Shown here in pieces: positions 44,404 to 58,298 of a stretch of DNA of 64,000 bases. Source of the stretch: Archangium sp. (GTDB taxonomy: Bacteria > Myxococcota > Myxococcia > Myxococcales > Myxococcaceae); NCBI GenBank assembly GCA_022843845.1, contig JALHMW010000015.1, positions 1 to 64,000 on the forward strand, given 5' to 3'. The position numbers were made by a program, and so were the translations under genes. Numbering within the stretch: position 1 is the first letter of the stretch; each line of letters begins with the position of its first letter. The notes beneath the pieces were generated by a model that saw nothing but the letters and a program-made list of their open reading frames with translations, searched no databases and was not told the DNA's origin.

Positions 44404-45408
44404 CTACTTCTTGGGACCGGGACGGCTGGTCTCGACCTTCTGCATGGCGTCGAGGACCCACCCTTCGACGGGCTTTCCGTCTTCGAACATCTTCGCGACG
44501 CTCTTGAGGCCGAAGTAGCCGCGGCTCTGCGCAGCGTCGAAGGCTGCATCGGTGGCGTCCATCGAGCGCATCGCGAGGGCCAGCGTGAGGAGCGAGGTGG
44601 CGTACTCCTGCACCGACTGCTCATTCGCGCCGGCCAGCTGCGCCTCGCGAAGCACCTGCGCGCCACCAGCCCAGCCCGCGATCTTCCTCGCGACCTGCGG
44701 CTCGATGGTGAGGCGCGCGTACTCCCGCACCAGGCCTTCGACGTTGGGCTTGTCTGATGGGCCGACGATCAGAAACGCCTCACCGTTCTCACCCGAGACG
44801 GCGCGAACGGTGTCCTGCGCGTCGAGGAGGTTGACGATCAGCAGCGCCTCTTCCTTGTCTGACGCCTTGAGCGACTTGCGCGCCCTGGTGAGGGGGCCGT
44901 CGAGCACCGGGAGATAGGCCTTGAGCGACTTGCGGTACTCGGCCTGAACCTGGCCCATCAGCTCGTCGAGCTTCCAGCCGGTCCACGCCTTCTGGAGCAC
45001 CGCCTCGAGCCCCTTGAGATCCTGCAGGTCCTTCGACTTCGCGCCGGCGGCGAACGGAGGCTGCGCGGTGCCGACGACGTACGAGAGGTAGCGGCGCAGC
45101 GGCACCTGGTGCGCCTCGAAGAACGCGTCGGCGGCCTTGCGAACTTCCGGGTCGCCACCGATCACGCGGCCACGAACGGCCTGGCGCACGGGGTGGTAGA
45201 CGACCTTGGGGATCGGCTCCTTGCGGGTGACGGGGCCCTGGTCGAAGCCCATGGCGTTGAAGATCGCGAACAGGGCGAAGATGCGCTCGTCGTTGCGCAG
45301 CTCGACGCCTTCACCGGTATAGAGGCTGGCGAACCAATCGCCCTGTGAGGCGGCGAAGGCTGGGGTCGAGATCAGGGCCGCGACCAGAGCGGGAACGAGA
45401 GCGCGCAT
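44404..45408 (-). CDS. Secreted protein of unknown function
   Basis: A 334-residue protein with signal peptide MRALVPALVAALISTPAFA. The mature protein is mostly helical (FFEAHQVPLRRYLSYVVG, LQKAWTGWKLDELMGQV) with a central part containing LLIVNLLDAQD and ENGEAFLIVGPSDK that looks like a domain of alpha/beta type. No catalytic motif is recognised. It is followed by the dedA gene with a 13-bp gap, so the two are probably co-transcribed. The proposed ATG at 45408 gives the only plausible signal peptide; the frame is open for another 90 codons upstream. Confidence 0.65.
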   Translation of the reverse strand: MRALVPALVAALISTPAFAASQGDWFASLYTGEGVELRNDERIFALFAIFNAMGFDQGPVTRKEPIPKVVYHPVRQAVRGRVIGGDPEVRKAADAFFEAHQVPLRRYLSYVVGTAQPPFAAGAKSKDLQDLKGLEAVLQKAWTGWKLDELMGQVQAEYRKSLKAYLPVLDGPLTRARKSLKASDKEEALLIVNLLDAQDTVRAVSGENGEAFLIVGPSDKPNVEGLVREYARLTIEPQVARKIAGWAGGAQVLREAQLAGANEQSVQEYATSLLTLALAMRSMDATDAAFDAAQSRGYFGLKSVAKMFEDGKPVEGWVLDAMQKVETSRPGPKK

Positions 45409-45500: not shown

Positions 45501-45953
45501 TCAGACCTTGACGAGGGTCTTCAGCGCATCTTTCGTGGTGATGATCTTCTGACCGAACGTGGTGCAGATGGCCATCAGGAGCTTGATGCAGGCCTGGGGC
45601 TTCACGGCCATCAGCTTCTGGAAGTCGGCCTGGCGGATCTCCCAGGCGGTGACGGCGGTGACGGCCGTCGCAGTGCACTGACGCTGGCCGGTCGTAATGA
45701 GCGAGAGCTCCCCCAGCCAGTCCCCCGGCCCCAGCTCGCCCATGCCGAGCTCGGCGCCCTTGTCGTTCTTCGTGCTGAGCGACACCCGGCCTTCGCCGAC
45801 GACGATCAGCGTGTCGCTCACCATGTTCTCGACGAAGAGCGGAGTGCCCGCCGGGTAGCTCCGGAGAGAGGCAATGCCAGCAAGAATGCCGATGCCCGTG
45901 TCGGTGAAACCAGAGAGCAGCGGGCTCGCACGGAGTGCGGCGGCAGCGTCCAT
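45501..45953 (-). CDS. Cyclic-nucleotide-binding domain protein
   Basis: A 150-residue single-domain protein of the CRP/cNMP-binding fold (LRSYPAGTPLFVENMVSDT, IVVGEGRVSLSTKNDKG, ELGPGDWLGELSLITTG). The GELSLITTGQR segment aligns with the phosphate-binding cassette (GELALxxxxxR), but the Arg is shifted, so binding of cAMP or cGMP is uncertain. There is no helix-turn-helix, kinase or channel part. It follows the caspase-like gene by 54 bp on the same strand and may be its sensory partner. A similar stand-alone domain is common in myxobacteria. Confidence 0.85.
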   Translation of the reverse strand: MDAAAALRASPLLSGFTDTGIGILAGIASLRSYPAGTPLFVENMVSDTLIVVGEGRVSLSTKNDKGAELGMGELGPGDWLGELSLITTGQRQCTATAVTAVTAWEIRQADFQKLMAVKPQACIKLLMAICTTFGQKIITTKDALKTLVKV

Positions 45954-46007
45954 TGGCTCACCTGAGTATCACGACTCTGGCGTGCGTTCGCGAAATCAGA
46001 CGCGAGT

Positions 46008-47276
46008 TCAGTGCGGCTTCAATGAGAGCTCGGCGAGGTCGGCGGCCAGGCGGTGCTGTTCGGCGGTCGAGCGACTCAGGACGAGCGGACGGTCGTCGAG
46101 GGTGATCGTCAGCAGCACCTGCTGCGCCTCGCGCGAAAGGGTCGCCGACGACACGGCCCGGCTGCTGCACAACCGCTCGAGCGCCGGCTGGAGCGTCTGC
46201 CCGAGTGAGACGAGCACCGGCAGGGGCGTGGCCACGTCGATCGACGGGCACCCGCCTCCGCTCTCGAGGCGAATCACCTGCGCCGACGAGGCTCGCGCGG
46301 TCAGCTGATCTTCGTCGACGAGCCCGAAGCCCCGCGCCGGCACCTCGAGGCGCCCCTCTTTGCGTCGGCCTTCACGCTCGAGCTCGACCTGCCACGTGCC
46401 GCTGGGCACCAGGAGTTTCTGCGCCGCCGGCCGCGCCGCCGACAGGAGGACGTCACGCGTCACGGGATCACGAATGACGAGCCGCTCGATGCCCGGAGGC
46501 ACGACGACCCCGGGACCGTCTTCGCGCACGCGCGTCACCACGATCTCCCCGTAGCCAGACAGCCGCACCGCGAGTCCCGGGTGCTGGCCGCTCTCTCCGC
46601 TGGCGGTGCGCTCGTAGGCGAAGCGGTAGGCCTCATCGAGTGACACTGCGCCATCCTGGCTCAGGTCGGCCGCGCCCCGGAGCGCCGCGACGAGGTGCTG
46701 GGTGAAGACGCTGCCGCGGAGCTGGCCGGCTTCGAGTGACGGCTCGTGCGAGGCGCTCGAGGTGATGAACGCGTCGCCCTGCACGGTGAGCTTGTCTTCC
46801 GCCTCGATGGTGAAGGTCGGCGCTTCTCGCGCGGCGGTCTCGATGAGGCCTGAGGACTGGCAGGCGTCGATGATCGTCACCCGCGCCTTTGCCCCGGTCG
46901 CGGTGACGCGGCGCTTGAGCTCCTTCCAGCGCACCTGCTCGGCGCCAGGGAGCAGCCCATGCTCGGCGGTGGCGTGCGTCGAGACATAGAGAAAGAGCAG
47001 CGTCTGTGGATCGGTCTTCGCCTGCGCCTTCGCCCACTCGAGCGCGGCGAAGAGCTCGGCCACCGGGCGGCCCTGGAGGAGCTTGAGGTTGGTAGGCGCG
47101 ACGCTCCCTGCCTCGACGAACAGCTTCGCGACGCGCGCGGCGTCAGCTTCCGCGTAACGCAACGCTGGCCGAGGGCCCTGACCGCCGTTGTGGCCGAAGA
47201 CGATGGCCAGCCGCTTCGTGCCAGCGAGCGCCGGCACGGCGGTGAGGATCAGGGCGAGCCAGAGAGCTTTGCGCAT
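46008..47276 (-). CDS. Secreted caspase-like (C14) peptidase, set A
   Basis: A 422-residue protein. A signal peptide (MRKALWLALILTAVPALA) is followed by a caspase/metacaspase-type domain (20-245). The first strand is KRLAIVFGHN; the catalytic His is His101 in YVSTHATAEHG, and the catalytic Cys is Cys139 in IIDACQSSG. SGYGEIVVTR near 250 starts a C-terminal beta-rich region without assignment. Exported caspase-like enzymes are unusual, since most prokaryotic caspases are cytoplasmic. The gene overlaps the TPR membrane protein gene by 28 bp, so they are coupled. The target is unknown; basic or acidic P1 preference cannot be read. Confidence 0.85.
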   Translation of the reverse strand: MRKALWLALILTAVPALAGTKRLAIVFGHNGGQGPRPALRYAEADAARVAKLFVEAGSVAPTNLKLLQGRPVAELFAALEWAKAQAKTDPQTLLFLYVSTHATAEHGLLPGAEQVRWKELKRRVTATGAKARVTIIDACQSSGLIETAAREAPTFTIEAEDKLTVQGDAFITSSASHEPSLEAGQLRGSVFTQHLVAALRGAADLSQDGAVSLDEAYRFAYERTASGESGQHPGLAVRLSGYGEIVVTRVREDGPGVVVPPGIERLVIRDPVTRDVLLSAARPAAQKLLVPSGTWQVELEREGRRKEGRLEVPARGFGLVDEDQLTARASSAQVIRLESGGGCPSIDVATPLPVLVSLGQTLQPALERLCSSRAVSSATLSREAQQVLLTITLDDRPLVLSRSTAEQHRLAADLAELSLKPH

Positions 47277-48505
47277 TCAGCCTTCGCTTTTTCGACGCCG
47301 AGCTTCGCGGCCATGCAGGCGTCCTTCTTTGCCGACTCGGCGTCGCCTTTGAGCTGAACGAGGGCGGCGCGCAGCAGGTAGGCCTCTCCGAACTCAGGGG
47401 TCTCGGCGATCAGGTTGTCGAGCTTGTCCTTCGCGGACTCGTAGTCCCTCGACTGGATGTACATGAGCGCGAGGTTGTACCGGGCGTTCAGGAATGACGG
47501 CGACGCGGCGATGGCTGCGAGGAAGAACTTGCGGGCCTGATCGAAGTCCTGCGCGCCGAGCGCGGCCCTGCCCGCGAGGTTCTCAGCAGCCGCGAAGTTC
47601 GGGCAGGCCAGCGCCTTGTCGAGGGCGGGGCTGCGCACGCGCTCACGCTCGAACGTCGCCCGCGCGAGCAGGTACGAGGACTCGGGGTTCGGGTCGACGA
47701 CGCCCAGCGCCGTGATGTCGGTGGCGATGGCGGCGAGGCGAGGCGCGTCTTCGACCCTGCGGCACGAGGCGGGCGGCACCGGCTCCTTCCACGAGGCGTA
47801 CAGCGCATCGAGGCCCGAGAACGGGGTGACGTCGACCGTCGGTGTCTTCGGGTCCTTCGGCGTCGGCGTCGAGCTGCCTCGGGTCGCTACGAAGCCGATA
47901 CCCAGCAGCGCGACCAACGCGACGGCGCCGAGGATGATCGGGAGCGGGCTCGAGCCACGGGCCGGCGCAGGTGCAACACCGAGCTGCTGCGGCGCGGTCT
48001 GGTTCACGGGCGGGAGCGACGTGCCCGGCTGCGTCGTCGGCACTGGCGGCGTGCGCATCGCAGGGTCGAGCACGATGCCGCGTTTGGTCGCGAACCAGCC
48101 GAGCACGGCGACGATCGAGTTCAGCGACGCGACGACCTCGTCGAGCCCGACCTCGACTTTGGCGTCCTGCAGACTGCCTGCGTGATCGTGTGACGACAGG
48201 TTGCCCCACGCCTGGACGGTGCCCATGTGCGCAAGGATGGTGGTGGGCACCACGCCCTGGTTGGCCTGCTGGCGGAACTTGGTGATCAGCTCGTCGAGCA
48301 TCGCCTTGCCGGGCGTCTGCTTGAGCTCCTCGGTGACGAGCGAGCGCATCAACGCCTCGAGCACGAGCCGCGCGTTCTGCATCACGCCCTTGAAGTCCTG
48401 GGCGCGGCCACGGCTCACCATCGCGTCGATGTCACCCTGCAGCCGGCCGAAGTGCGGCGCGAATGCAGCGAGACGGTTCAAGAGAGGGTCGAGCTCGGCA
48501 GCCAT
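47249..48505 (-). CDS. Membrane protein with N-terminal helical domain and periplasmic TPRs, set A
   Basis: A 418-residue protein. The N-terminal 150 residues are helical (ARLVLEALMRSLVTEELKQ, TVQAWGNLSSHDHAGSLQD) and resemble DUF4145-like domains. A Pro/Gln-rich linker and one transmembrane helix at about 190-207 (LPIILGAVALVALLGIGF) follow. The outside part has TPRs (ARYNLALMYIQSRDYESAK, AYLLRAALVQLKGDAESAK). The positive-inside rule suggests the N-terminus is cytoplasmic. It could relay a cytoplasmic signal to the exported caspase encoded by the overlapping next gene. It starts 4 bp after the CsgG-like gene. Confidence 0.75.
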   Translation of the reverse strand: MAAELDPLLNRLAAFAPHFGRLQGDIDAMVSRGRAQDFKGVMQNARLVLEALMRSLVTEELKQTPGKAMLDELITKFRQQANQGVVPTTILAHMGTVQAWGNLSSHDHAGSLQDAKVEVGLDEVVASLNSIVAVLGWFATKRGIVLDPAMRTPPVPTTQPGTSLPPVNQTAPQQLGVAPAPARGSSPLPIILGAVALVALLGIGFVATRGSSTPTPKDPKTPTVDVTPFSGLDALYASWKEPVPPASCRRVEDAPRLAAIATDITALGVVDPNPESSYLLARATFERERVRSPALDKALACPNFAAAENLAGRAALGAQDFDQARKFFLAAIAASPSFLNARYNLALMYIQSRDYESAKDKLDNLIAETPEFGEAYLLRAALVQLKGDAESAKKDACMAAKLGVEKAKAECAKLSGSP

Positions 48506-48509
48506 GGGC

Positions 48510-49190
48510 TCACTTTGCCAGCGCTGCGAGATCCAGGCGCGCCAGAATGAAGTCGGGCTGCTCCTTCACGACCTGGTCGAGCAGGGTCTTCGCCTTCGCC
48601 GGGTCCTTCGCGTCGCGGGCCTCGAGCGACTCGCCGTACTTCGCGGCGGTGTCGAGCTTGAGCTTGACAGGCTTCTTCGCGGGCACGGCGAGCGCGAGCT
48701 TCGCGGTGTCGGCGAGCCCTGCCACCAGCTTTGCGACCAGCTGCTGCTCGCCCTCGAAGATGTCGTCGGAGGTGATCTTCGCGCGGGCCGTCACCACCAC
48801 CTTCATGTCGAGCAGCCGGTAGATCTTCGACTCGAGCAGCAACGTGTTCTTCGAGGGCCTCAAGATGGTGCCGGCGACCTGGTAGTGCGCACCGACCATG
48901 CCGCCGACCTGCACCGCGGTCTTCTGGTCGAAGTTCTTCGTCGACTGCAGCTTGAGCTCCTTCATGGCGTCTTCGATGCGGGCCCGCTCGACGACGTCGA
49001 TGCCGCCGGCGCTGACGAGATCGGTGATGAGCATCTCGGCCAGCCCTTTACGGAACATGGTGAGGTCGCCGAGCTTGTCGTCGACGTCGAAGTAGAGCAC
49101 CGCGATCACGGGCTTGCCGACGCCGGCATCTGGCTGCGCCGCGACCGACGTGGCGAGCGCGAGTCCTGCGAGGAACGCAAGTCGTGTCAT
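48510..49190 (-). CDS. CsgG/GNA1162-like secreted protein, set A
   Basis: A 226-residue exported protein with signal MTRLAFLAGLALATSVAAQ and no lipobox Cys. Residues 30-165 match the CsgG-type fold: IAVLYFDVDD, FRKGLAEMLITDLVSAGG, DVVERARIEDAMKELKL, and a domain that normally forms part of a secretion channel or sensor. Without lipid anchor or barrel strands it is more like the soluble periplasmic members. It is a close paralogue of the N-terminus of the 720-residue protein in set B. It is the first gene of set A, divergent from the CorA-like gene with 35 bp between starts. Confidence 0.8.
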   Translation of the reverse strand: MTRLAFLAGLALATSVAAQPDAGVGKPVIAVLYFDVDDKLGDLTMFRKGLAEMLITDLVSAGGIDVVERARIEDAMKELKLQSTKNFDQKTAVQVGGMVGAHYQVAGTILRPSKNTLLLESKIYRLLDMKVVVTARAKITSDDIFEGEQQLVAKLVAGLADTAKLALAVPAKKPVKLKLDTAAKYGESLEARDAKDPAKAKTLLDQVVKEQPDFILARLDLAALAK

Positions 49191-49225
49191 GGCTCTGCTT
49201 CTACCCCTATGCTCGCGCGCCACCA

Positions 49226-51508
49226 ATGGACGCAGCCCTGAGGAAAACCGTCGAAGCCCTCTTCGACCCGGCCTGTGTGACCTGGGGCTTCGTCAGGCCC
49301 AACCCCGGAGACGAGCCGCAGGCGCAGGAATTCTTCGTCGGCACCGGCACCCGCGACGCGACGCTGCCTGCGCACCCGCGAATGCTGAACTGGAAGCTGC
49401 CGCAATGGAGAGGCACCAACCTGCGCGCGTCGACCGAGGCGGTGGTCGCCAGCGCCGAGGCATTGGACGCCGCGAGCCTGCCGATCACGCTTCGATCACA
49501 CGAGCCCACCTTCGACGTCACGGTGGCGGCGTTCCTGGCGACGTACCGGGTGCTGCACAAGGCCTGGCCAGCGGGCATGAGCGCGCTCGTCGAGTACGTG
49601 AGCGAGTGGGAGCAGGGGCGCACCGAGTCGGCCGGCGCGTACGATCGGGCGCTCGCGTCGGTCTTCTACGGCTCGATGCACGTCTTCCGGGCGACGGGCA
49701 GCGCGCGGCCGCTGGTCGAGCTGATCGCGGCGGTGCTGGCGCTCCAACCGACGGGGCCGGAGCTCACCACCCTGCCCTCGCAGCTGATCTCGGCGCGCGT
49801 GTCGCGGCGGCTGAAGGCCGACGCCGATCTCTATCGAACCGAGCTGTCCCGTGCGTGGAAGGTGCAGCTCGATCTGCCGCTCGATCACGGCGCCGACGCG
49901 GGCTACCGGCGCATCGACGCGCTGTTCCTCTCGTCACCGCAAGACGTGACGGTGCTGAAGCTCATCGCGCGGCCCGACGCGGAGTCCTCGAGCTACGGCC
50001 GCGGCTTCGAGCTGATGGCGGTGCACGCGCCGAACGAGCCGCAGGCGTGGGGCAAACACACCATCTCGATTCCGCCCGAGAGCGCCGGCTCGCTCGCCGA
50101 TCTCGCGCAGACGCTCGATCGCCGCGAAGGCCCGAACAAGCCAGACGGCACCCCGAGACCCATCGGCAAGCCGCGCTTCACGAACCAGCCCGCGGAGCTC
50201 GAGGGCCTCTCCGACCCCTGGTACTCCGATGGCTACGCGTGGCCAAAGGGGCGCTCGACGATCGTCGCGCCACCGTTCGTCGGCACGCGGATGTCTCGGG
50301 AAGAGGTGTGGGAGACGATCTGGCAGCGCTTTCACGTCGGCCGGAACATTCACGTCTCATCAGCGCGGACCATCTTCGCGAAGCCGGTTCGAACGCACCC
50401 GTCCGTCGACGAGCACCTGCTCGAGGCCCGGGGCTTCACCCGCACCGCGTGGACACGTGCCCAATCGGGGCTACTGCCGTCGGTGGTGCGCTCGTTCCTC
50501 GGTGACGCGTCGTCTGGCGACGTGACGCACTTCGAGAAGCAGGCTGGCGAACGCACGGTGCGCGTGTCGCTCTACCCGAGCCGGCTCGCGATCCTCTGGG
50601 TGGAGCAGACGACCGCATCAACGACGTTGCTCGAGCTCGCGCGAGCGCAGGCGTCACTGGCGACCGCTCGCACACTCGACGAGCTCAAGCCCGTTCGAGA
50701 GCTCGCAGACCTCACCCGCACCGTCGGCCAGGAGCGCTGGTTGGTGTTCGGCGCCTACCGCATCAACCGCGCGCGCTCGTCGATGCTCGATGGTTCACGC
50801 AGCGTGCAGGGCCTGTTTCATGCGCTCGCGAGCGGAGAAGCGCCGAGCCTCGCGAACCTGCCGAGCGAGTCCGAGTCCAAGGCGCGCACCGTGCAGGTGC
50901 ACCGTGACGTCGAGCACTGGATGACGGCGACGGGCGGCGCGCGCATCGAGCTGGAGCTGGAGGATCGCCCCGAGCTGCCGGTGCTCGATGGTGACTTCGC
51001 GTTGTTTCTGCTGACGACGGGCCAGCGGTACTCGGCGTTCGAGATCACCCGACGCATGGGCGAGCTGGAGCGCCGCTCCCGTCGGAGCCGATGGGCCTCG
51101 CTCGCGCCGACGACGACGCTGCGCGGTGACGTGATGTTCTTCACCAACTCGCTCTGGTACGCGCGCGTGTCCGACGAGCCCGACATCAACGCTCGCTACG
51201 ACGCCTGGCGCGAGCTGCACGGCATGCACGAAACGGTGGAGTCGCTCCGCAGCCAGACCTCGGAGCTCGACGAGTACCGCAAGGAACGCTTCGAGAAGAT
51301 GACCGGCATTCTGCTGCTCCTCTTTCTGCCGATCACGATGGCGACGGGGTTCTTCTCGGGCGCGCAGTTCAATGAGATGGAGCTCCGCGTCGGGTTGCCG
51401 TGGACCACGGGCGGCTGGAGGGTCTTCCTGATCTACACGGCGGTCTTCACGGTGCTGGTGTTCGGGGCCCTGCTGGTCGCGCGCCTGCTCTCGTGGCGAA
51501 AGCGCTGA
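49226..51508 (+). CDS. Large protein with a CorA-like C-terminal membrane domain
   Basis: A 760-residue protein; the first 600 residues are not recognised (mixed alpha/beta, no signal peptide). The last 100 residues look like the end of CorA metal channels: a long helix (LRSQTSELDEYRKERFEKM), transmembrane helix 1 (ILLLLFLPITMATGFF, about 695-710), a short loop, and transmembrane helix 2 (FLIYTAVFTVLVFGALLV, about 733-750). The selectivity motif GMN is replaced by SGAQF, so Mg transport is doubtful. It stands between the two caspase/CsgG sets on the opposite strand and may be the membrane sensor or pore of the system. Confidence 0.7.
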   Translation: MDAALRKTVEALFDPACVTWGFVRPNPGDEPQAQEFFVGTGTRDATLPAHPRMLNWKLPQWRGTNLRASTEAVVASAEALDAASLPITLRSHEPTFDVTVAAFLATYRVLHKAWPAGMSALVEYVSEWEQGRTESAGAYDRALASVFYGSMHVFRATGSARPLVELIAAVLALQPTGPELTTLPSQLISARVSRRLKADADLYRTELSRAWKVQLDLPLDHGADAGYRRIDALFLSSPQDVTVLKLIARPDAESSSYGRGFELMAVHAPNEPQAWGKHTISIPPESAGSLADLAQTLDRREGPNKPDGTPRPIGKPRFTNQPAELEGLSDPWYSDGYAWPKGRSTIVAPPFVGTRMSREEVWETIWQRFHVGRNIHVSSARTIFAKPVRTHPSVDEHLLEARGFTRTAWTRAQSGLLPSVVRSFLGDASSGDVTHFEKQAGERTVRVSLYPSRLAILWVEQTTASTTLLELARAQASLATARTLDELKPVRELADLTRTVGQERWLVFGAYRINRARSSMLDGSRSVQGLFHALASGEAPSLANLPSESESKARTVQVHRDVEHWMTATGGARIELELEDRPELPVLDGDFALFLLTTGQRYSAFEITRRMGELERRSRRSRWASLAPTTTLRGDVMFFTNSLWYARVSDEPDINARYDAWRELHGMHETVESLRSQTSELDEYRKERFEKMTGILLLLFLPITMATGFFSGAQFNEMELRVGLPWTTGGWRVFLIYTAVFTVLVFGALLVARLLSWRKR

Positions 51509-51585
51509 GACCTGACTCCGTTCGGTGAGGTGCCGAAGTGGGGGCGACGCCTTGTGGCGATTGCCGGCCGGTGTACCCATGAAGC

Positions 51586-51801
51586 ATGGAAGCCACCGAA
51601 CTGAACGTGATCGACGAGACCATCTCCGAGGCAAGCCTTCCGGAGGCGTGCCCGAGCTGCCACGGCAAGCTGTCGGTGAGGCTGTCACCCGACGGCATCT
51701 CGACGGTGTGCCTGGGCTGCCACTTCATGGGCCGCGCGCAGCTCGAGACCGATGAATACGGCTCCACGTCCCTGGAGTTGCTGCCCACGGCCCAGGCGTG
51801 A
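51586..51801 (+). CDS. Small zinc-ribbon protein
   Basis: A 71-residue protein with two Cys pairs, CPSCHGK (22-28) and CLGCHFMG (42-49), forming a likely zinc ribbon, flanked by acidic segments. There is no helix-turn-helix or membrane part. The ATG at 51586 has no good ribosome-binding site, but the Cys spacing and codon use favour a real gene. It is 77 bp after the CorA-like gene and its stop codon touches the stop of the converging CsgG-TPR gene. Function unknown; perhaps a regulator of its neighbours. Confidence 0.65.
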   Translation: MEATELNVIDETISEASLPEACPSCHGKLSVRLSPDGISTVCLGCHFMGRAQLETDEYGSTSLELLPTAQA

Positions 51802-53964
51802 TCACTGACGTCGAACGCGGAACTCGCCCTTCGTCAGCTCGGTCTTCAAGCCATGGCCGTCTTGCTGGAAGGTAAAGGTCGCCTCGAACGTTCCTTCATC
51901 GAAGTCGCCTTTGTCCTTCGCTTCCCTGGAGATCTTCGTCGTGCAGGTACCCGTCACCTGATCGCCGTCGCGCGTGCGCCAGGTCGCGTCGCGGCACTTC
52001 CAGCCCGTGCCCTCAGGCACGAGGTAGAGCGAGAGATCGATCGAACTCGTCTTGTTGTGGCCTGAGATCGCGAGTTGCTTGCCGTCGTACGACTTCACCG
52101 ACACCAGGTTCTGGTCGACCTCCGGAGTCCAGCCGCGATCCATCACGAACTTCATCCACAGCACGTTGGCGGTGACGTCGCCGTACTCGCACCAGGGCGT
52201 GTAGTTCTTGTGGTACCCGAGCATGTCGCTGATCGAGCCGTTGAGTTCGACGTAGCGGCGCCAGTACGTCCTCGCGCGCTCGCAGTCGTCGTACCGGGCC
52301 GAGTCCATCGCGAGATCCTTGGCGACATAGGCGAGCACGCTGCGGGTCTTTGCGGTGGCTGGGCAGGTCTTGACGAGGTTGTCCCAGAACCGGTCCATGC
52401 CCTCGAGGCCCTCGTGGCGGACCTGATCGTCGCAGACGCGGCTGGCGCCGACGCGAAGATCCATGTCCTCACAGCTCTTGAGGCCCTTCGCGTACCGCTC
52501 GCGCACGTCACGCTCGAAGTCGTGCGCGCCCCCGATCAGCTTCTTGATCTGCCCTTCTCGCCACGAGTTGCGGCTGTCGGTCGGGTACGTGTCGAGGATG
52601 AGCTGAAACGCGGCGACAGCGTCGTCGTCCCGATGGAGCCGCTGGAGGATCTCGGCCTTGTCTTCGATGAGGCTCGCAGCGGCGCGGGCCGTGGCGTCGC
52701 GCTGGGCCGCGCTGGCCTCGGCCGCGGTCTTCATGGCGGCAGCGATGCGATCGTCGAAGGTCTTCCACAGCGCCTTCGCGTCGGCCGGTGACAGGTCGGC
52801 CCAGGTCGGCGCCACGGTGTAGTCAGACCGGTCGCCCTTCGCGTCGACGCCCGAGCTGATTCGGCCGCCGAAGACAAACTGAGACAGCTCGTTGAGGGCC
52901 TGATCGGCGCTCACGATGTTCGCGGGCCCGAGGCCCGAGTCGGTGATGTCGTTGAGCAGCTCGGGCGCGATCGTCGCGTCGGACGGACTGAAGTTCGCCG
53001 AGCCCTTCGAGTGCAGGCGCAGCTCGTCGAGATAGCGCAGCTGGTTGGAGTGCCACGCGCGCATCGCCTCGATCGCCTGCTGGCGCTTCGACGTCAGCAC
53101 GACCCGCAACGAGCTCTCGCGGCTCGAGACGTACTGGCGCAGCACGCGCGCGAGGAAGTGCGCCTTCACGCGGCGCATCGCGAGGAATCGGGCCTGCTCT
53201 GGCGTGGGGAGCTGATCGAACTTCGCCTCGTTCTTGAGCGTGTCGTCGGCGGCCTTCGCGACGCGCAGCGCCGACTCGGTGATGATCTCCTTCTTGCGCT
53301 TGTTGTATTCCTCGAGCGCTTTGACGGCCTGCTCCTTGCGCTCGCGCGCCATCAGGAACGTCGGCGACTTCGACACCAGGGCCGCGAACGCCTTCTGGGC
53401 TTCTTCGACCTTTCCGTTGTCCGACAGATCCATCGCCTTCGAGTACGCGAGCAGCGCCTCGAGTGAGGGCACCTTCGCGCGACGGCGGCCGGCCTCGTTC
53501 TTCACCTTGATGTCGATGCCGACGGTGACGCGCTCGACCAGCTGCTGTTCGATCTCGAAGATGTCGTCCTTCGGGCCATCGGCGCGGGCCGTCACCACGA
53601 TCGAGTTCTTCGTCGCGTCGAGCAGCTTCGCGTCGAGGATCAGCTTGTCGCCGCTGATCGCCATGCTGCCGGTGAGCAGGTAGCGGGCCTCGAGGAACTT
53701 GCCGATCTTCACCGCCGTCGCCTGATCGAAGTACTTCGTGCGCTGGAGCTTGAGCTCGGCGACCACGGCCTCGAACTTGTCGCGCTCGACGACCGTGACG
53801 CCGTCCCACGAGACGAGGTCGGTCACCATCATGTCGGCGAGCCCCTTTCGCATGACGTCGAGGTCGGCGTTCTTCGTGTTGTTGTCGAAGTAGAGGACGG
53901 CGAGCGTCGGCTTGGCGTCCGAAGCGCCGAGGGCGAGGGCAAGAGTCAACAGGGCCGCGTGCAT
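51802..53964 (-). CDS. CsgG-like domain plus helical repeats, secreted, set B
   Basis: A 720-residue protein with a short signal (MHAALLTLALALGASDA). The CsgG-type domain (18-160) has LAVLYFDNNTKNADLDVMR, LADMMVTDLVSWDGVTVVE and RYLLTGSMAISGDKLILDAK and is clearly paralogous to the set A CsgG protein. A TPR unit follows (LLAYSKAMDLSDNGKVEEA). A long helical part of about 400 residues with coiled coils is next, and the end is beta-rich (SIDLSLYLVPEGTGWKC, TFEATFTFQQDG). It is 3 bp after the caspase gene, so it is probably the last gene of set B. Confidence 0.78.
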   Translation of the reverse strand: MHAALLTLALALGASDAKPTLAVLYFDNNTKNADLDVMRKGLADMMVTDLVSWDGVTVVERDKFEAVVAELKLQRTKYFDQATAVKIGKFLEARYLLTGSMAISGDKLILDAKLLDATKNSIVVTARADGPKDDIFEIEQQLVERVTVGIDIKVKNEAGRRRAKVPSLEALLAYSKAMDLSDNGKVEEAQKAFAALVSKSPTFLMARERKEQAVKALEEYNKRKKEIITESALRVAKAADDTLKNEAKFDQLPTPEQARFLAMRRVKAHFLARVLRQYVSSRESSLRVVLTSKRQQAIEAMRAWHSNQLRYLDELRLHSKGSANFSPSDATIAPELLNDITDSGLGPANIVSADQALNELSQFVFGGRISSGVDAKGDRSDYTVAPTWADLSPADAKALWKTFDDRIAAAMKTAAEASAAQRDATARAAASLIEDKAEILQRLHRDDDAVAAFQLILDTYPTDSRNSWREGQIKKLIGGAHDFERDVRERYAKGLKSCEDMDLRVGASRVCDDQVRHEGLEGMDRFWDNLVKTCPATAKTRSVLAYVAKDLAMDSARYDDCERARTYWRRYVELNGSISDMLGYHKNYTPWCEYGDVTANVLWMKFVMDRGWTPEVDQNLVSVKSYDGKQLAISGHNKTSSIDLSLYLVPEGTGWKCRDATWRTRDGDQVTGTCTTKISREAKDKGDFDEGTFEATFTFQQDGHGLKTELTKGEFRVRRQ

Positions 53965-53967
53965 GGG

Positions 53968-55746
53968 TCAGGGCTCCGTGGGCAGGAAGAGAAACTGGCC
54001 CGAGCGAGGCAGGTGTTCGTCGAACCGGAAGAACTGCGGAGACTGCTCCGCCTGCCGCGACTGTCGCACGGCCAGCGGCACCTTCGAGACGAGAAACGCG
54101 GCGAGCTCTTCATCGGTGATCACCCGATCGCCGTTCGAGTCAGCCAGCGCGCGGCCGAGCCCTTCGAGCAGGAAGGCGGTGAGCGCGGAGTGCCCATTCC
54201 ACTGCCAGGCGCCCTGCTCTGCTTCGTCTTCCCAGGCGCGCTGGCCCTTCGTCGCCGCCGTCAGCACGACCTCGGCGCGTTCATTCCAGAGCGTGCGCAG
54301 CTCACCCGACAGCCGCGCGTCACCCTTCGCGCCCACGGCCCAGCCCGAGTAGCAGGCATCGAGGATCACCATCACGTGCTTCGACGGCACGCCCTTGCGC
54401 AGATCGTCGATGAGCTCCTGCATGTCCCAGCCGCGCTCCGAGATCGGTCGCTCGGGGTGCTCGAAGTAGCCCGAGGGCTGGAGCACGCCGAAGTCCTTGC
54501 GGGCTCCGGCTTCGAAGCCGCCGTGCCCCGAGTAGTAGAAGAGGAAGCTCGAGGAGTCGTCGACGGTGAAGCGTTGCCGAAAGCGCTCGACAGCGAGCTT
54601 CAGGTTCGCGGCGGTGGGCACGCCGTCGGTCTCTTCACCAGCCTCGGGGCGATCGACGAAGAAGAGGACGTTCTCTTTCCGGTAGCCGAGCTTCGAGATC
54701 AGCAGCTCCCGCATCGCGCGCGCATCGCGACACGGAGCGTGGAGCGTTCGATCTCCGGAGTAGCCACAGACTCCTGCGACCAGCGCGTAGGGCTCAAACG
54801 AGCGAGGGCCGTCTTGCGCCGCGAGCAGGTTGACGACCTTCGCAGGCGGCAGCGGGTCTCCCTTCGCGCCGCTCGGGCCAGCGACGACGGAGCTGGCGGA
54901 GTTCGTGATCGCGAGACCCGCACCAAAGGTCAGCAGCAGAAAGCCCGCCGCGATCGGCACGTGCCAACGCCGCTTCGCCGTGGACGCACCGAGCAGCTTC
55001 ACCACGCGGTCGAGCGTCAGCCGCGTGCCGTCTCTCGACGACGCAATCAGCGTTCCTCCATGTCGCTCGCCCGCGTACCAGGGGTTCGAGTCTTCTGCCG
55101 AGAGCCGCGACGCCAGCCACTCGAGCCGAAGCTTGCGCGATGGATCTGCCGAGACCACGAGCGTGCCATCGCGCTGCTGCACGAGCAGGAGCCCCGCGCC
55201 TTGATGACGCCGCGCCCAGAACTTGAACTGCGTCGACACCGGCCGGTCGAGGACGAGGAGCAGGACGCCGCGACTGGAGCCGGAGATCGAGGCCTCGGCC
55301 GGAAGATCGACCGTGAGCTCTCGGCCGCGCTTCAGATCTTCTTCGAACAGGCGCTGGTCGTCCGACAACTGGGCGACGTACTTCTGCAGCGCTGGGACGT
55401 TCTTGAGGAAGGGTTCGTCGAGCAGCGGGCGGCCAGTCTCGACGTGCGCGCGCACGGCGTTGAACAGCACGTTCGCCTCATGCTCGAACGCGGTCCGGTC
55501 GTCGTGGTTGAGCAAGGTCTCTTGCGCGAGCGCGAGGAAGACGCCCTGCACCGTGAACTCGGGCGACACGCGATCAGGCCAACGACCCTGGCGCACGTCC
55601 TCCGCGTACAGACAGACCGCCTCGAGCGCCGCCGACACCTCAGCCAGGCCCATCAGGTACCAGCACCACGCCTCATCCAGCGTGGGGAATTCGGGGAGCG
55701 TTCGCGCGCCTGGAGTTCTCGTGCGGAACCACTCCAGCGAGGTCAT
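53968..55746 (-). CDS. Membrane-anchored caspase-like peptidase, set B
   Basis: A 592-residue protein. The N-terminal 255 residues are not recognised (helical, then beta strands such as GVLLLVLDRPVSTQFKF). One transmembrane helix at about 262-280 (VPIAAGFLLLTFGAGLAI) follows KRR, so the N-terminus should be inside. The C-terminal caspase domain (318-560) would then be outside; its His408 is in FYYSGHGG and Cys465 in ILDACYSGWA. DSNGDRVITDEEL near 545 looks like an EF-hand-type Ca loop. The ATG overlaps the trypsin-like gene stop (ATGA). A cytoplasmic sensing domain with an external protease is the likely reading. Confidence 0.82.
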   Translation of the reverse strand: MTSLEWFRTRTPGARTLPEFPTLDEAWCWYLMGLAEVSAALEAVCLYAEDVRQGRWPDRVSPEFTVQGVFLALAQETLLNHDDRTAFEHEANVLFNAVRAHVETGRPLLDEPFLKNVPALQKYVAQLSDDQRLFEEDLKRGRELTVDLPAEASISGSSRGVLLLVLDRPVSTQFKFWARRHQGAGLLLVQQRDGTLVVSADPSRKLRLEWLASRLSAEDSNPWYAGERHGGTLIASSRDGTRLTLDRVVKLLGASTAKRRWHVPIAAGFLLLTFGAGLAITNSASSVVAGPSGAKGDPLPPAKVVNLLAAQDGPRSFEPYALVAGVCGYSGDRTLHAPCRDARAMRELLISKLGYRKENVLFFVDRPEAGEETDGVPTAANLKLAVERFRQRFTVDDSSSFLFYYSGHGGFEAGARKDFGVLQPSGYFEHPERPISERGWDMQELIDDLRKGVPSKHVMVILDACYSGWAVGAKGDARLSGELRTLWNERAEVVLTAATKGQRAWEDEAEQGAWQWNGHSALTAFLLEGLGRALADSNGDRVITDEELAAFLVSKVPLAVRQSRQAEQSPQFFRFDEHLPRSGQFLFLPTEP

Positions 55747-57950
55747 GGCTCGATCAACTCCGGAGCGAACGCCTCGAGGGCGAGCGCACGAAGTCGGGCT
55801 GAACGCGCGGGATCACGAAGCAGCGACGGCCGGAGCGGAACCCCGACTGCAAGCTCAGCGGCATCGACGATCGCGCCGTCCTTCGTGATGCGTCGGCCTT
55901 CGAGCATGTCGCCTCTCTTCACGACGACCGCATCGATCAGCCCATCGCCGTCAGTGTCGTACTGAAACCACTCCACACCTTCGAACGACGACCAGAGAAA
56001 GCCAGCGCCGGGAAACCCACGCTGCGCCCAGTCGGTTCGGGTCGCGAGCGTCTGTCCCTGCGTTCCTTCGAGCGCGAAGCCCATGGTGGTGGCCTGAAAT
56101 TCAGTCGCGGTGACGATGGCGAGCGGCAGGCCCGGCCCCGAGAGCGCGGTGATCTTCCCCTTCGTCGCACCGAAGATCGGGAACGTCGCGGGTGGGCGAT
56201 CGGGGCGGTAGAGCGCGAAGGTGGCGAGCGTCTGTCCTGCCCGCTCCCGCGCGAGACCGGTGAAGGACGAGAGCGCGACGGCCCGCCAGTCGGCGCCACG
56301 CAGCATCGGCTCATTGACGAGTGCCCCGGTGCTGGTTCGGAGGAACGCCCGCTCGACGGTGACGAAGTTGGTCGACTCGAAGACGCGCGTCGCGCCGATG
56401 AAGATCCACCAGCGCCCGGGCTGGCGAACGACCCGCAGCGCGGGTGTCGCGGCCCGGAGCGCGGCCTCGACGTCGGCGCCCTTGTTCAGGACCTCGGCCG
56501 TCGCGTCGATGAACACGGCAGAGCCGCTGCCACGTCGCGCGAAGACCGCATCCGGCCGTCCATCGGCGTCGAGATCTCGGGGCTTGAAGTCCTTCGCGCC
56601 GGCGAGCGGCTCCGGAGGCTCCGGAAGCGCGGAAGGATCGAGCATCGGCGCGAGCTCCTTCACCAGCGCGGCCCAGCGCGGCGACGGAAGGAGCTCGGGA
56701 TCGGTGAGTGTCGCCGCTCCGAGGAACGCGCCCGGCGTTCGACCATCGAACGCGAGGGCCTTGCCGACCCCTCCATTCGTCGCCGCGATCACCACGCGAT
56801 CGAACGTGCCGTCGGCGTCGCGATCGAACCAGCCAAGCCACTGACCTGCTACCTGCCCGAGCACCGCATCGGGCTTCATGCGCGTCGGGAACCCAGGCGG
56901 CACCGGTTGCTGCGAAGTGTTGACGATGAACGCCGCACGCGCGCCGCTGCCCGATTGGTACACGTCGTTCTTCCCGTCACCGTCGGAGTCGCTCCAGCTG
57001 CCCCCGCTCGCGACGAGCTCCCACGGAGACGGCAGGCGCGGCTCGGGCTGCGAGGGAACGGCCTCGAGGAACCGCCGCACCTCGGCGACGTGAACGTGGA
57101 AGTTGGTCGCGACGCCTGCACGCGCGTCGGTCTTCAAGAACGCGTTCACGCCGACGAGCTCCGCGGCGAGGTTCACCAGCGGGCCGCCCGAGTCACCGGG
57201 AGAGATCTGACAGCTCGACTGCACGACCAGCCCGGGCACCTTTTCTTCCAGGCGCTGACGCTCGAGCTCGACCGACGCGCCGACCGAGCGGCACGCAGCT
57301 GAGGCGGCAGCATCAGACTCCACGACACAGTCGGTGCCGACCAACGACGCGAGGTGCGTGGCGAGCTTCCCGATGCTGGCGACCTCTCCGTCCTTGATCG
57401 CCCACAGCAGGCCGATACCACCGTGCCCGAGCGCCGCGACGGGCTCGCCCGGCGTCGGGTCGCGCTTCGAGAGCTTGATGGCCACGAGATCAGCGGGAGG
57501 GTCGGCGATCTTCAACACCGCGAGATCGAGCAGCGGGTCGCTCTTGAGCACCCACGCAGTCATTGGCCGCTCGTCGAGCACCATCACGCCCTGCGGCGAG
57601 ATCGTTCCTCGCTGCAGCTGCACCTTCGCCTTCAGGTCGACGAGCTCCGCCCGGGCGATGACGTGGTGGTTGGTGAGGACGAAGCCGCGTGGATCGAACA
57701 CCACGCCGCTGCCGTAGCTGGTGCCAGCCCGCACGATCACCGTCGCCGGAGCTGCCTTTCGGTACACCTCGCGCAGGTCACCCTTCGCGCCTCCCGTCTG
57801 GACGACGCGGCTCGCGCCGATCGAGGTGCCTGACTCACGCAGCGCCGAGAGCAGCCGTTCAGGATCGTCGACGGACTCGGACGCGCGCGGCGTCGCTCGG
57901 GACGTCACGCACGCACAGAGGAGGAGCAACGGAGCCGAGAGCCGGCGCAC
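55743..57950 (-). CDS. Trypsin-like lipoprotein with Ca-type DxDxDG repeats, set B
   Basis: A 735-residue predicted lipoprotein (LCAC, Cys14). The protease domain (65-280) has all three trypsin/HtrA residues: His96 in TNHHVI, Asp142 in LDLAVLK and Ser254 in PGDSGGPL. The remaining 450 residues contain FG-GAP/VCBS-like Ca-binding loops DSDGDGKND, DRDADGTFD, DLDADGRPD and DTDGDGLID, spaced along what may be a beta-propeller. No PDZ domain is seen. GTG is the start. It is coupled to the caspase gene by a 4-bp overlap, so a proteolytic cascade between the two is an attractive guess. Confidence 0.82.
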   Translation of the reverse strand: MRRLSAPLLLLCACVTSRATPRASESVDDPERLLSALRESGTSIGASRVVQTGGAKGDLREVYRKAAPATVIVRAGTSYGSGVVFDPRGFVLTNHHVIARAELVDLKAKVQLQRGTISPQGVMVLDERPMTAWVLKSDPLLDLAVLKIADPPADLVAIKLSKRDPTPGEPVAALGHGGIGLLWAIKDGEVASIGKLATHLASLVGTDCVVESDAAASAACRSVGASVELERQRLEEKVPGLVVQSSCQISPGDSGGPLVNLAAELVGVNAFLKTDARAGVATNFHVHVAEVRRFLEAVPSQPEPRLPSPWELVASGGSWSDSDGDGKNDVYQSGSGARAAFIVNTSQQPVPPGFPTRMKPDAVLGQVAGQWLGWFDRDADGTFDRVVIAATNGGVGKALAFDGRTPGAFLGAATLTDPELLPSPRWAALVKELAPMLDPSALPEPPEPLAGAKDFKPRDLDADGRPDAVFARRGSGSAVFIDATAEVLNKGADVEAALRAATPALRVVRQPGRWWIFIGATRVFESTNFVTVERAFLRTSTGALVNEPMLRGADWRAVALSSFTGLARERAGQTLATFALYRPDRPPATFPIFGATKGKITALSGPGLPLAIVTATEFQATTMGFALEGTQGQTLATRTDWAQRGFPGAGFLWSSFEGVEWFQYDTDGDGLIDAVVVKRGDMLEGRRITKDGAIVDAAELAVGVPLRPSLLRDPARSARLRALALEAFAPELIEP

Positions 57951-57956
57951 GGGTGA

Positions 57957-58298
57957 TCAGTTCGCGCCGGGGAACGACGTCACGTACTTGATCTTCACGT
58001 CCGGGAACGAGGTGACGAACTGCACCTTCGTGTCCGGGAACGACGTGACGAACTGCCACTTCCCGCACGAGTCGGGGAACGAGGTGACCTTCTGGACCTT
58101 CACGTCCGGGAAGCTCGAGACCTCCTGCACCTTCACGTCGGGGAAGCTCGTGACGACCTGGATCTTCCCGTACAGCTTCTTGCCGTTGAACGTGCAGCCG
58201 CCCTTGTTGAACGAGCCACCGGCGTCAGCGCGCAGCGAGGTGACGACTCCGGCGACTGCGATGACGGCGAGCAACGACGAGACGGTCAGGCGGTTCAT
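57957..58298 (-). CDS. Small secreted protein with SFPD repeats, set B
   Basis: A 113-residue protein with signal peptide (MNRLTVSSLLAVIAVAGVV). After a short Cys-containing segment come six copies of an 11-residue unit, V(T/S)SFPDxKVQx, beginning at residues 49, 60, 71, 84, 95 and 106. One unit is lengthened by SCGKWQ. The two Cys (35 and 78) may form a disulfide. The regular V-x-S-F-P-D pattern with 11-residue period suggests a beta-solenoid or stacked strands. It lies 6 bp upstream of the trypsin-like gene and may be its first operon gene, perhaps its inhibitor or ligand. No function is known to me. Confidence 0.75.
   Translation of the reverse strand: MNRLTVSSLLAVIAVAGVVTSLRADAGGSFNKGGCTFNGKKLYGKIQVVTSFPDVKVQEVSSFPDVKVQKVTSFPDSCGKWQFVTSFPDTKVQFVTSFPDVKIKYVTSFPGAN
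57960..58154 (-). repeat. Six tandem 33-bp units encoding the SFPD repeats
   Basis: The repeat-coding part of the small secreted protein. Units at residues 49, 60, 95 and 106 follow a strict 33-bp period, and the third unit carries 6 extra bp. The last unit stops after GAN. DNA similarity between units is high enough for slippage or unequal recombination. Confidence 0.75.

Follow-up and report, generated by a model that had tools for sequence, protein, structure and literature searches.

What would two caspases and a trypsin-like protease do outside the inner membrane of a bacterium, encoded side by side with CsgG/LpoB-like and TPR proteins? Bacterial effectors of the caspase and trypsin kinds are mostly treated as components of immunity or cell death that work in the cytoplasm. 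The locus that raises this question lies in a 64,000-nucleotide stretch of DNA (hereafter the window) from Archangium sp., a member of the Myxococcales whose genome assembly is incomplete (85.8% complete). Domains of the locus proteins were called with Pfam, NCBIfam and PADLOC, and the genes, together with the two portions of them that are compared below, are the following.

57957..58298, minus strand: B1, secreted SFPD-repeat protein of 113 aa, homologue of the 7_1-knot protein UU089.1 (PDB 8IWA)
55743..57950, minus strand: B2, trypsin-like lipoprotein without PDZ
53968..55746, minus strand: B3, membrane caspase with a cytosolic domain (residues 1-257), a TM helix (263-281) and a predicted periplasmic metacaspase domain (about 318-570)
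54976..55686, minus strand: residues 21-257 of the B3 cytosolic domain, homologous to X1 residues 93-374
51802..53964, minus strand: B4, exported CsgG/LpoB-like domain followed by a long TPR-type region
49226..51508, plus strand: X1, CorA-like membrane protein with a cytosolic part of ~690 aa and two C-terminal TM helices
49502..50347, plus strand: the portion of X1 common to B3, residues 93-374
48510..49190, minus strand: A1, exported CsgG/LpoB-like protein with a short TPR-like tail, paralogue of the B4 N-terminus
47249..48505, minus strand: A2, DUF4145-like cytosolic domain, TM helix 188-206 and TPR
46008..47276, minus strand: A3, secreted caspase with signal peptide
45501..45953, minus strand: A4, cNMP-binding protein, ancestral neighbour outside the module
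44404..45408, minus strand: A5, signal-peptide protein, ancestral neighbour, function not assigned

Profile matches underlying these names were obtained for CsgG/LpoB (E 8e-7 and 4e-10), caspase (6e-13 and 5e-12) and Trypsin_2 (2e-22), and also for TPR, DUF4145 and cNMP. Two sets of genes run on the minus strand: set B from 58298 down to 51802 (SFPD protein, trypsin, caspase, CsgG-TPR) and set A from 49190 down to 46008 (CsgG, DUF4145/TPR, caspase). X1 lies between them on the plus strand, convergent to B4, and its start is 35 bp from that of A1. Within set B, SFPD and trypsin genes were separated by 6 bp, trypsin and caspase B overlapped by 4 bp, and caspase B was 3 bp from CsgG-TPR; within set A, CsgG was 4 bp from DUF4145/TPR, which overlapped caspase A by 28 bp. 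The tight coupling described in a first-pass annotation of this DNA was confirmed, coordinates included (overlaps of 4-28 bp, gaps of 3-6 bp), and the intergenic spacing at orthologous loci of congeneric genomes was nearly equal to that in the window. The same annotation had spoken of two paralogous sets. This held for the CsgG parts: A1 aligned with the first 207 residues of B4 (39% over 198 aa, BLASTP E 7e-37), and, judged by this alignment, A1 and the N-terminus of B4 are true paralogues. It did not hold for the caspases A3 and B3, which had no BLASTP similarity (E 0.94) and are unrelated beyond the superfamily; they were rejected as members of paralogous sets. The flanking genes, read by eye from the sequence, we take to be those of MiaB, Der, RibA and MoeA. 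A promoter scan of the locus gave nothing exceeding shuffles, and terminator-like sites were in mild excess (11 vs 6.2). A small zinc-ribbon-like ORF behind X1 (window 51586-51801, plus strand) was present only in the window genome and in G003.

Most of the relatives compared were MAGs, with G008 and G056 as incomplete cases. Full-length orthologues of B3 were found in 10 of 60 related genomes. A sample of 195 genomes from across the phylum contained 10 with such an orthologue, nine from the same family and one from a different family of the order. The order SFPD–trypsin–caspase–CsgG-TPR–X1–CsgG–DUF4145/TPR–caspase was identical on a single contig in six genomes, and two further genomes, with loci split over contigs, were compatible with it. 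G015 had a shortened locus that lacks SFPD, X1 and CsgG-TPR and in which A2 is inverted; trypsin, caspase and CsgG were present in G056, and CsgG-TPR occurred in two tandem copies in G023. Gene-neighbourhood analysis, proposed earlier as a check on whether the neighbours stay together, showed that they were conserved jointly in related Myxococcaceae genomes. In several of the relatives that lack the module, the genes immediately after miaB were those of the cNMP protein, A5 and a DedA/VTT protein, indicating that the module sits between miaB and an older block. Since the cNMP gene keeps these old neighbours where the module is missing, it is a neighbour and not a module member, and its earlier assignment to set A was rejected.

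All three proteases retained their catalytic residues. A3 and B3 matched the C14 profile (E 6.4e-13 and 5e-12, respectively), and their dyads (H101/C139 in A3, H408/C465 in B3) were invariant in all 10 aligned orthologues, as was the triad of B2 (H96, D142 and S254; 10/10). In the AF2 model of B3, pLDDT was about 90 at residues 1-257 and low to moderate in the caspase part, which matched metacaspases (Foldseek E 8e-8; VIA Z 16.8 over 227 residues at 3.3 A). The cytosolic domain of B3 had no match in the fold search, which does not establish a new fold. Three to four conserved DxDxDGxxD (Ca-type) motifs were found in the C-terminal half of B2, and EF-hand-like or DxDxDGxxD loops were carried by A3, B2 and B3 in most or all orthologues. 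B2 had no PDZ in Pfam and reached 65.8 bits with degP_htrA_DO against a cut-off of 416, and its identification as Deg/HtrA was rejected.

Topology was called heuristically, from hydropathy and charge only. A3 and B1 start with signal peptides. A lipobox-like motif was found in nine of ten B2 orthologues; in the tenth, the start was probably wrongly chosen. B3 had no signal peptide and a single TM helix near residues 260-320 in 10/10 orthologues, and positive charge was on average higher before this helix than after it, which together would place the caspase domain outside the inner membrane. The proteases are predicted to sit on that side, toward the periplasm, in agreement with the earlier suggestion that the catalytic domains are periplasmic. 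Most genomes of the order carried several caspases of the A3 lineage, which was expanded in Myxococcaceae. None of 20 paralogous A3-family loci had a CsgG neighbour, and a CsgG–caspase module recurring elsewhere was rejected on this ground. A related sigma-type gene lay near the caspase in ~14 of these 20 loci (five were tested, and all were Sigma70_r2 by Pfam), and one neighbour gene had a weak zf-HC2 match.

The presence and absence of the proteases across genomes bore on whether they act together. The B2 search found the same 10 of 60 genomes as B3, plus a partial B2 in G008. A clear A2 gene was present in 15 genomes, and caspase A adjoined it in 10 of them. Nine of these ten also had trypsin and caspase B; the tenth was G008, in whose assembly (78% complete) caspase B was not found. 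The five A2-bearing genomes without caspase A (G004, G021, G024, G107 and G110) were all without caspase B as well, and A2 directly abutted the cNMP gene in each of them. Searches found no trypsin or caspase B orthologue in G004, G021 and G024, the trypsin search not having covered G107 and G110. On a tree built from miaB, A4, A5 and VTT, which is small and has some weak nodes, the losses fell separately in G004 with G002, in a clade of G021, G107 and G110, in G024 and perhaps in G007, giving about three apparent independent losses of the proteases. Because trypsin and caspase B are adjacent and overlapping, their joint loss counts as one event, and only caspase A, a separate transcription unit 6-8 kb from caspase B, gives independent evidence. 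That the absence of caspase A matched the five caspase-B losses among 15 A2 genomes is 1 of 3003 arrangements if the genomes are assumed independent, which they are not. The loss of the three proteases together supports one functional unit. B1, A1, A2 and B4 were kept in genomes where the proteases had been lost, indicating that these four have another role too. The trypsin orthologue of G008 (L137:2298-3554) contains an in-frame TAG and reaches the contig end, and is either a pseudogene or an assembly error.

X1, on the opposite strand and omitted by the first-pass annotation, probably belongs in the unit, to which a domain common to X1 and B3 connects it. With hhalign, B3 residues 21-263 aligned with X1 residues 93-374 (probability 96.1, E 3.5e-9, 235 columns), and an HMM of the B3 domain gave 25-38 bits for all eight X1 orthologues vs at most 6 for 400 shuffled sequences. 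Single-sequence BLASTP detected no similarity between the two domains, showing that the relation is remote. One input domain would thus serve two membrane outputs. A phylum search with the joint B3/X1 profile gave matches in 37 of 193 genomes, nearly all of them X1 or B3. X1 was also found by itself in large genomes of the family that have no protease module (L085-L089), and as this was so in many Myxococcaceae, X1 may be a neighbour only. The CorA likeness of X1 was weak (PADLOC CorA E 7e-6), and at the end of TM1 the CorA GMN motif was absent, the sequence there being GFFSGAQFNEM.

Two divergent matches of the joint profile (L176 and L177) and L181, which was found from L177, carried D-[VT]-G...-[VI]-L-D-H-H-[GQ] and then H-x-x-P-D-x-D, spelled DVGG/DTGN..LDHH[G/Q] and H.xPDxDxxxA. 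These look like the motifs of a DHH-type phosphoesterase with the motif order swapped. A CorA-like end was found in L177 (PADLOC CorA E 1.4e-11) and in the second reading frame of L176, whose two parts are separated by an apparent frameshift. The DHH letters were lost from the degenerate motif of X1, and the corresponding half was missing in B3. Pfam DHH reached only E 0.22 in L177, with no match in X1 or B3, and no DHH protein was matched in a PDB profile search, so that a DHH origin is a lead only. A scan of viral contigs with L177 yielded none.

A1 and B4 matched the CsgG/LpoB profile partially, in the LpoB-like part only (CsgG positions 35-99 of 210 for A1), and the signal peptide of A1 was without a lipobox Cys. 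No curli gene was present among the locus proteins, and a curli secretion channel was rejected. In G037 (L093:6786-8714), a gene next to those of CsgG-TPR and CsgG encodes a Ser/Thr kinase joined through a TM helix to an A2-like TPR half. With its kinase in place of the DUF4145 half, this protein supports the view that A2 is a membrane transducer whose N-terminus lies inside the cell. Two tandem CsgG-like genes occupied another site conserved within the genus (L129, L130 and L131), and no caspase was found near them.

We tentatively favor the view that the locus encodes a trans-envelope caspase/trypsin relay gated from the cytoplasm, with self-directed envelope damage or remodelling as its output. 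B3 would span the inner membrane as a type II protein. An intracellular signal would reach its cytosolic domain, the one it has in common with X1, and so activate the periplasmic metacaspase. The B3 caspase and the B2 trypsin may then activate each other or A3 by cleavage, and calcium may assist the cleavage, the proteases carrying EF-hand-like or DxDxDGxxD loops. The LpoB/CsgG-like TPR proteins and the DUF4145–TM–TPR protein would form a scaffold and a second transmembrane input, and B1 would be a secreted accessory. The most likely output would be controlled damage or remodelling of the cell's own envelope, as in developmental autolysis or stress-triggered death; the sigma-70-type genes near most of the 20 related exported-caspase loci fit such an envelope-response role. 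The intact proteases, export signals, co-loss and shared domain of this relay are read from sequence, and we infer the order of activation, the calcium dependence and the self-damage. If true, the relay would extend caspase control across a membrane in bacteria noted for their multicellular development.

The families of the components were already known. Four of five metacaspases of Myxococcus xanthus lie in sigma-factor operons (Asplund-Samuelsson 2012, PMC3501461), and A3 belongs to the same broad exported-caspase group; here, however, no sigma or anti-sigma gene was found among the locus genes, which instead include CsgG, DUF4145/TPR, trypsin and membrane caspase. As the paralogue loci are without CsgG and mostly sigma-linked, a known type of caspase here stands in a different context. 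The EAD/EACC conflict systems (PMC8195603) are alike in having caspase and trypsin effectors and in placing one non-catalytic domain on different effectors, and the domain sharing seen here resembles this EAD principle; the catalytic domains of our locus, by contrast, appear extracytoplasmic. No STAND/AAA or other sensor NTPase was present among the ten locus proteins scanned, and the two caspases scored 55.9 and 51.1 bits with the NCBIfam EACC1-caspase model NF047832, below its cut-off of 140. In type III CRISPR, CorA adjacent to NrN, a DHH phosphodiesterase, or fused with it is a known arrangement of SAM-AMP effectors (PMC10600005). Divergent X1-family members share DHH-like motifs and a CorA-like C-terminus with it, whereas the motifs of X1 are degenerate and B3 has only the second half of the domain, joined to a predicted periplasmic caspase. 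Curli CsgG and LpoB resemble A1 and B4 by partial profile match only. PADLOC profiles were matched only weakly (cNMP, trypsin, caspase and CorA), and a defence assignment was rejected. The first-pass annotation knew of no published system of this layout, and our literature search, which left most subscription journals outside, likewise found no publication on it or on a caspase with CsgG. The envelope location, the gene combination and the caspase/CorA domain link are undescribed in the literature searched.

A possible, if doubtful, alternative is an anti-phage or conflict system, in which the DHH-derived cytosolic domain would bind a nucleotide messenger of infection and switch on the CorA-like channel and the periplasmic caspase, leading to abortive infection. 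The DHH-like motifs of L176, L177 and L181, two of which have the CorA-like C-terminus, point in this direction, as does the spread of one domain over several effectors (PMC8195603). The NrN–CorA precedent (PMC10600005) makes a second-messenger version attractive, but that version rests on degenerate motifs, with Pfam DHH at E 0.22 at best and part of the motif missing in B3. Moreover, no cyclase, sensor NTPase or cas gene was seen among the ten locus proteins scanned, and the locus occupies a fixed chromosomal place and not a mobile island. We think it rather doubtful that the proteases serve housekeeping or developmental envelope maturation, processing exported proteins with LpoB/CsgG-like TPR adaptors and causing no cell death. 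The LpoB-like domains, vertical inheritance at one site and adaptor genes that outlast the proteases all agree with such a role; however, the repeated joint loss shows that cells can do without the proteases, and it would be unusual for quality control to employ two caspases together with a trypsin, the latter without the PDZ of Deg/HtrA. A fuller combination seems unlikely: a death or damage system spread over two compartments, with a DHH-derived nucleotide-sensing domain on both the CorA-like channel and the membrane caspase, so that one cytosolic signal would open the inner membrane and unleash a calcium-dependent periplasmic caspase/trypsin cascade, with a 7_1-knotted secreted component.

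Myxococcaceae include predators. Together with the signal peptides of A3 and B1 and the lipobox of B2, this is consistent with a weapon that the cell secretes or displays on its surface and delivers to the outside, for use in predation or competition. We consider such a weapon very unlikely, since the membrane anchor and conserved cytosolic domain of B3 in 10/10 orthologues fit control from inside the producer, and no immunity protein or secretion machinery was seen in the locus. It is more improbable still that the genes are co-inherited neighbours without a common function. The fixed location would allow it, and the distribution of X1, A1, A2, B1 and B4 is independent of that of the proteases; against it, caspase A is missing, as a separate transcription unit, in exactly the five A2 genomes that lost caspase B. 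The relay gated from the cytoplasm is the reading that we tentatively retain.

The SFPD-repeat protein links the locus to a structural family described elsewhere. B1 matched UU089.1 (PDB 8IWA) over about 65 residues (phmmer E 3.3e-13; profile E 3.4e-15). The 7_1 knot of UU089.1 was predicted from AlphaFold (PMC9278004) and confirmed by crystallography (PMC13352647). The repeats of B1 are homologous to UU089.1/Q9PR55, a likeness at the sequence level, and B1 differs by its signal peptide and its protease neighbours. The AF2 model of B1 had a pLDDT of 34, too low to judge a backbone knot. B1 also matched phrog_6462 (E 4.9e-31) and plasmid proteins of Leptospira and Burkholderia, and a search of a phage collection with B1 gave no match. 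For the 7_1-knot protein family, the locus would offer a genomic context that makes its role open to experiment. In the SFPD genes of G024 (L090) and G007 (L099), the repeats had changed together from SFPD to AFPD, and this joint change suggests concerted evolution of the repeats.
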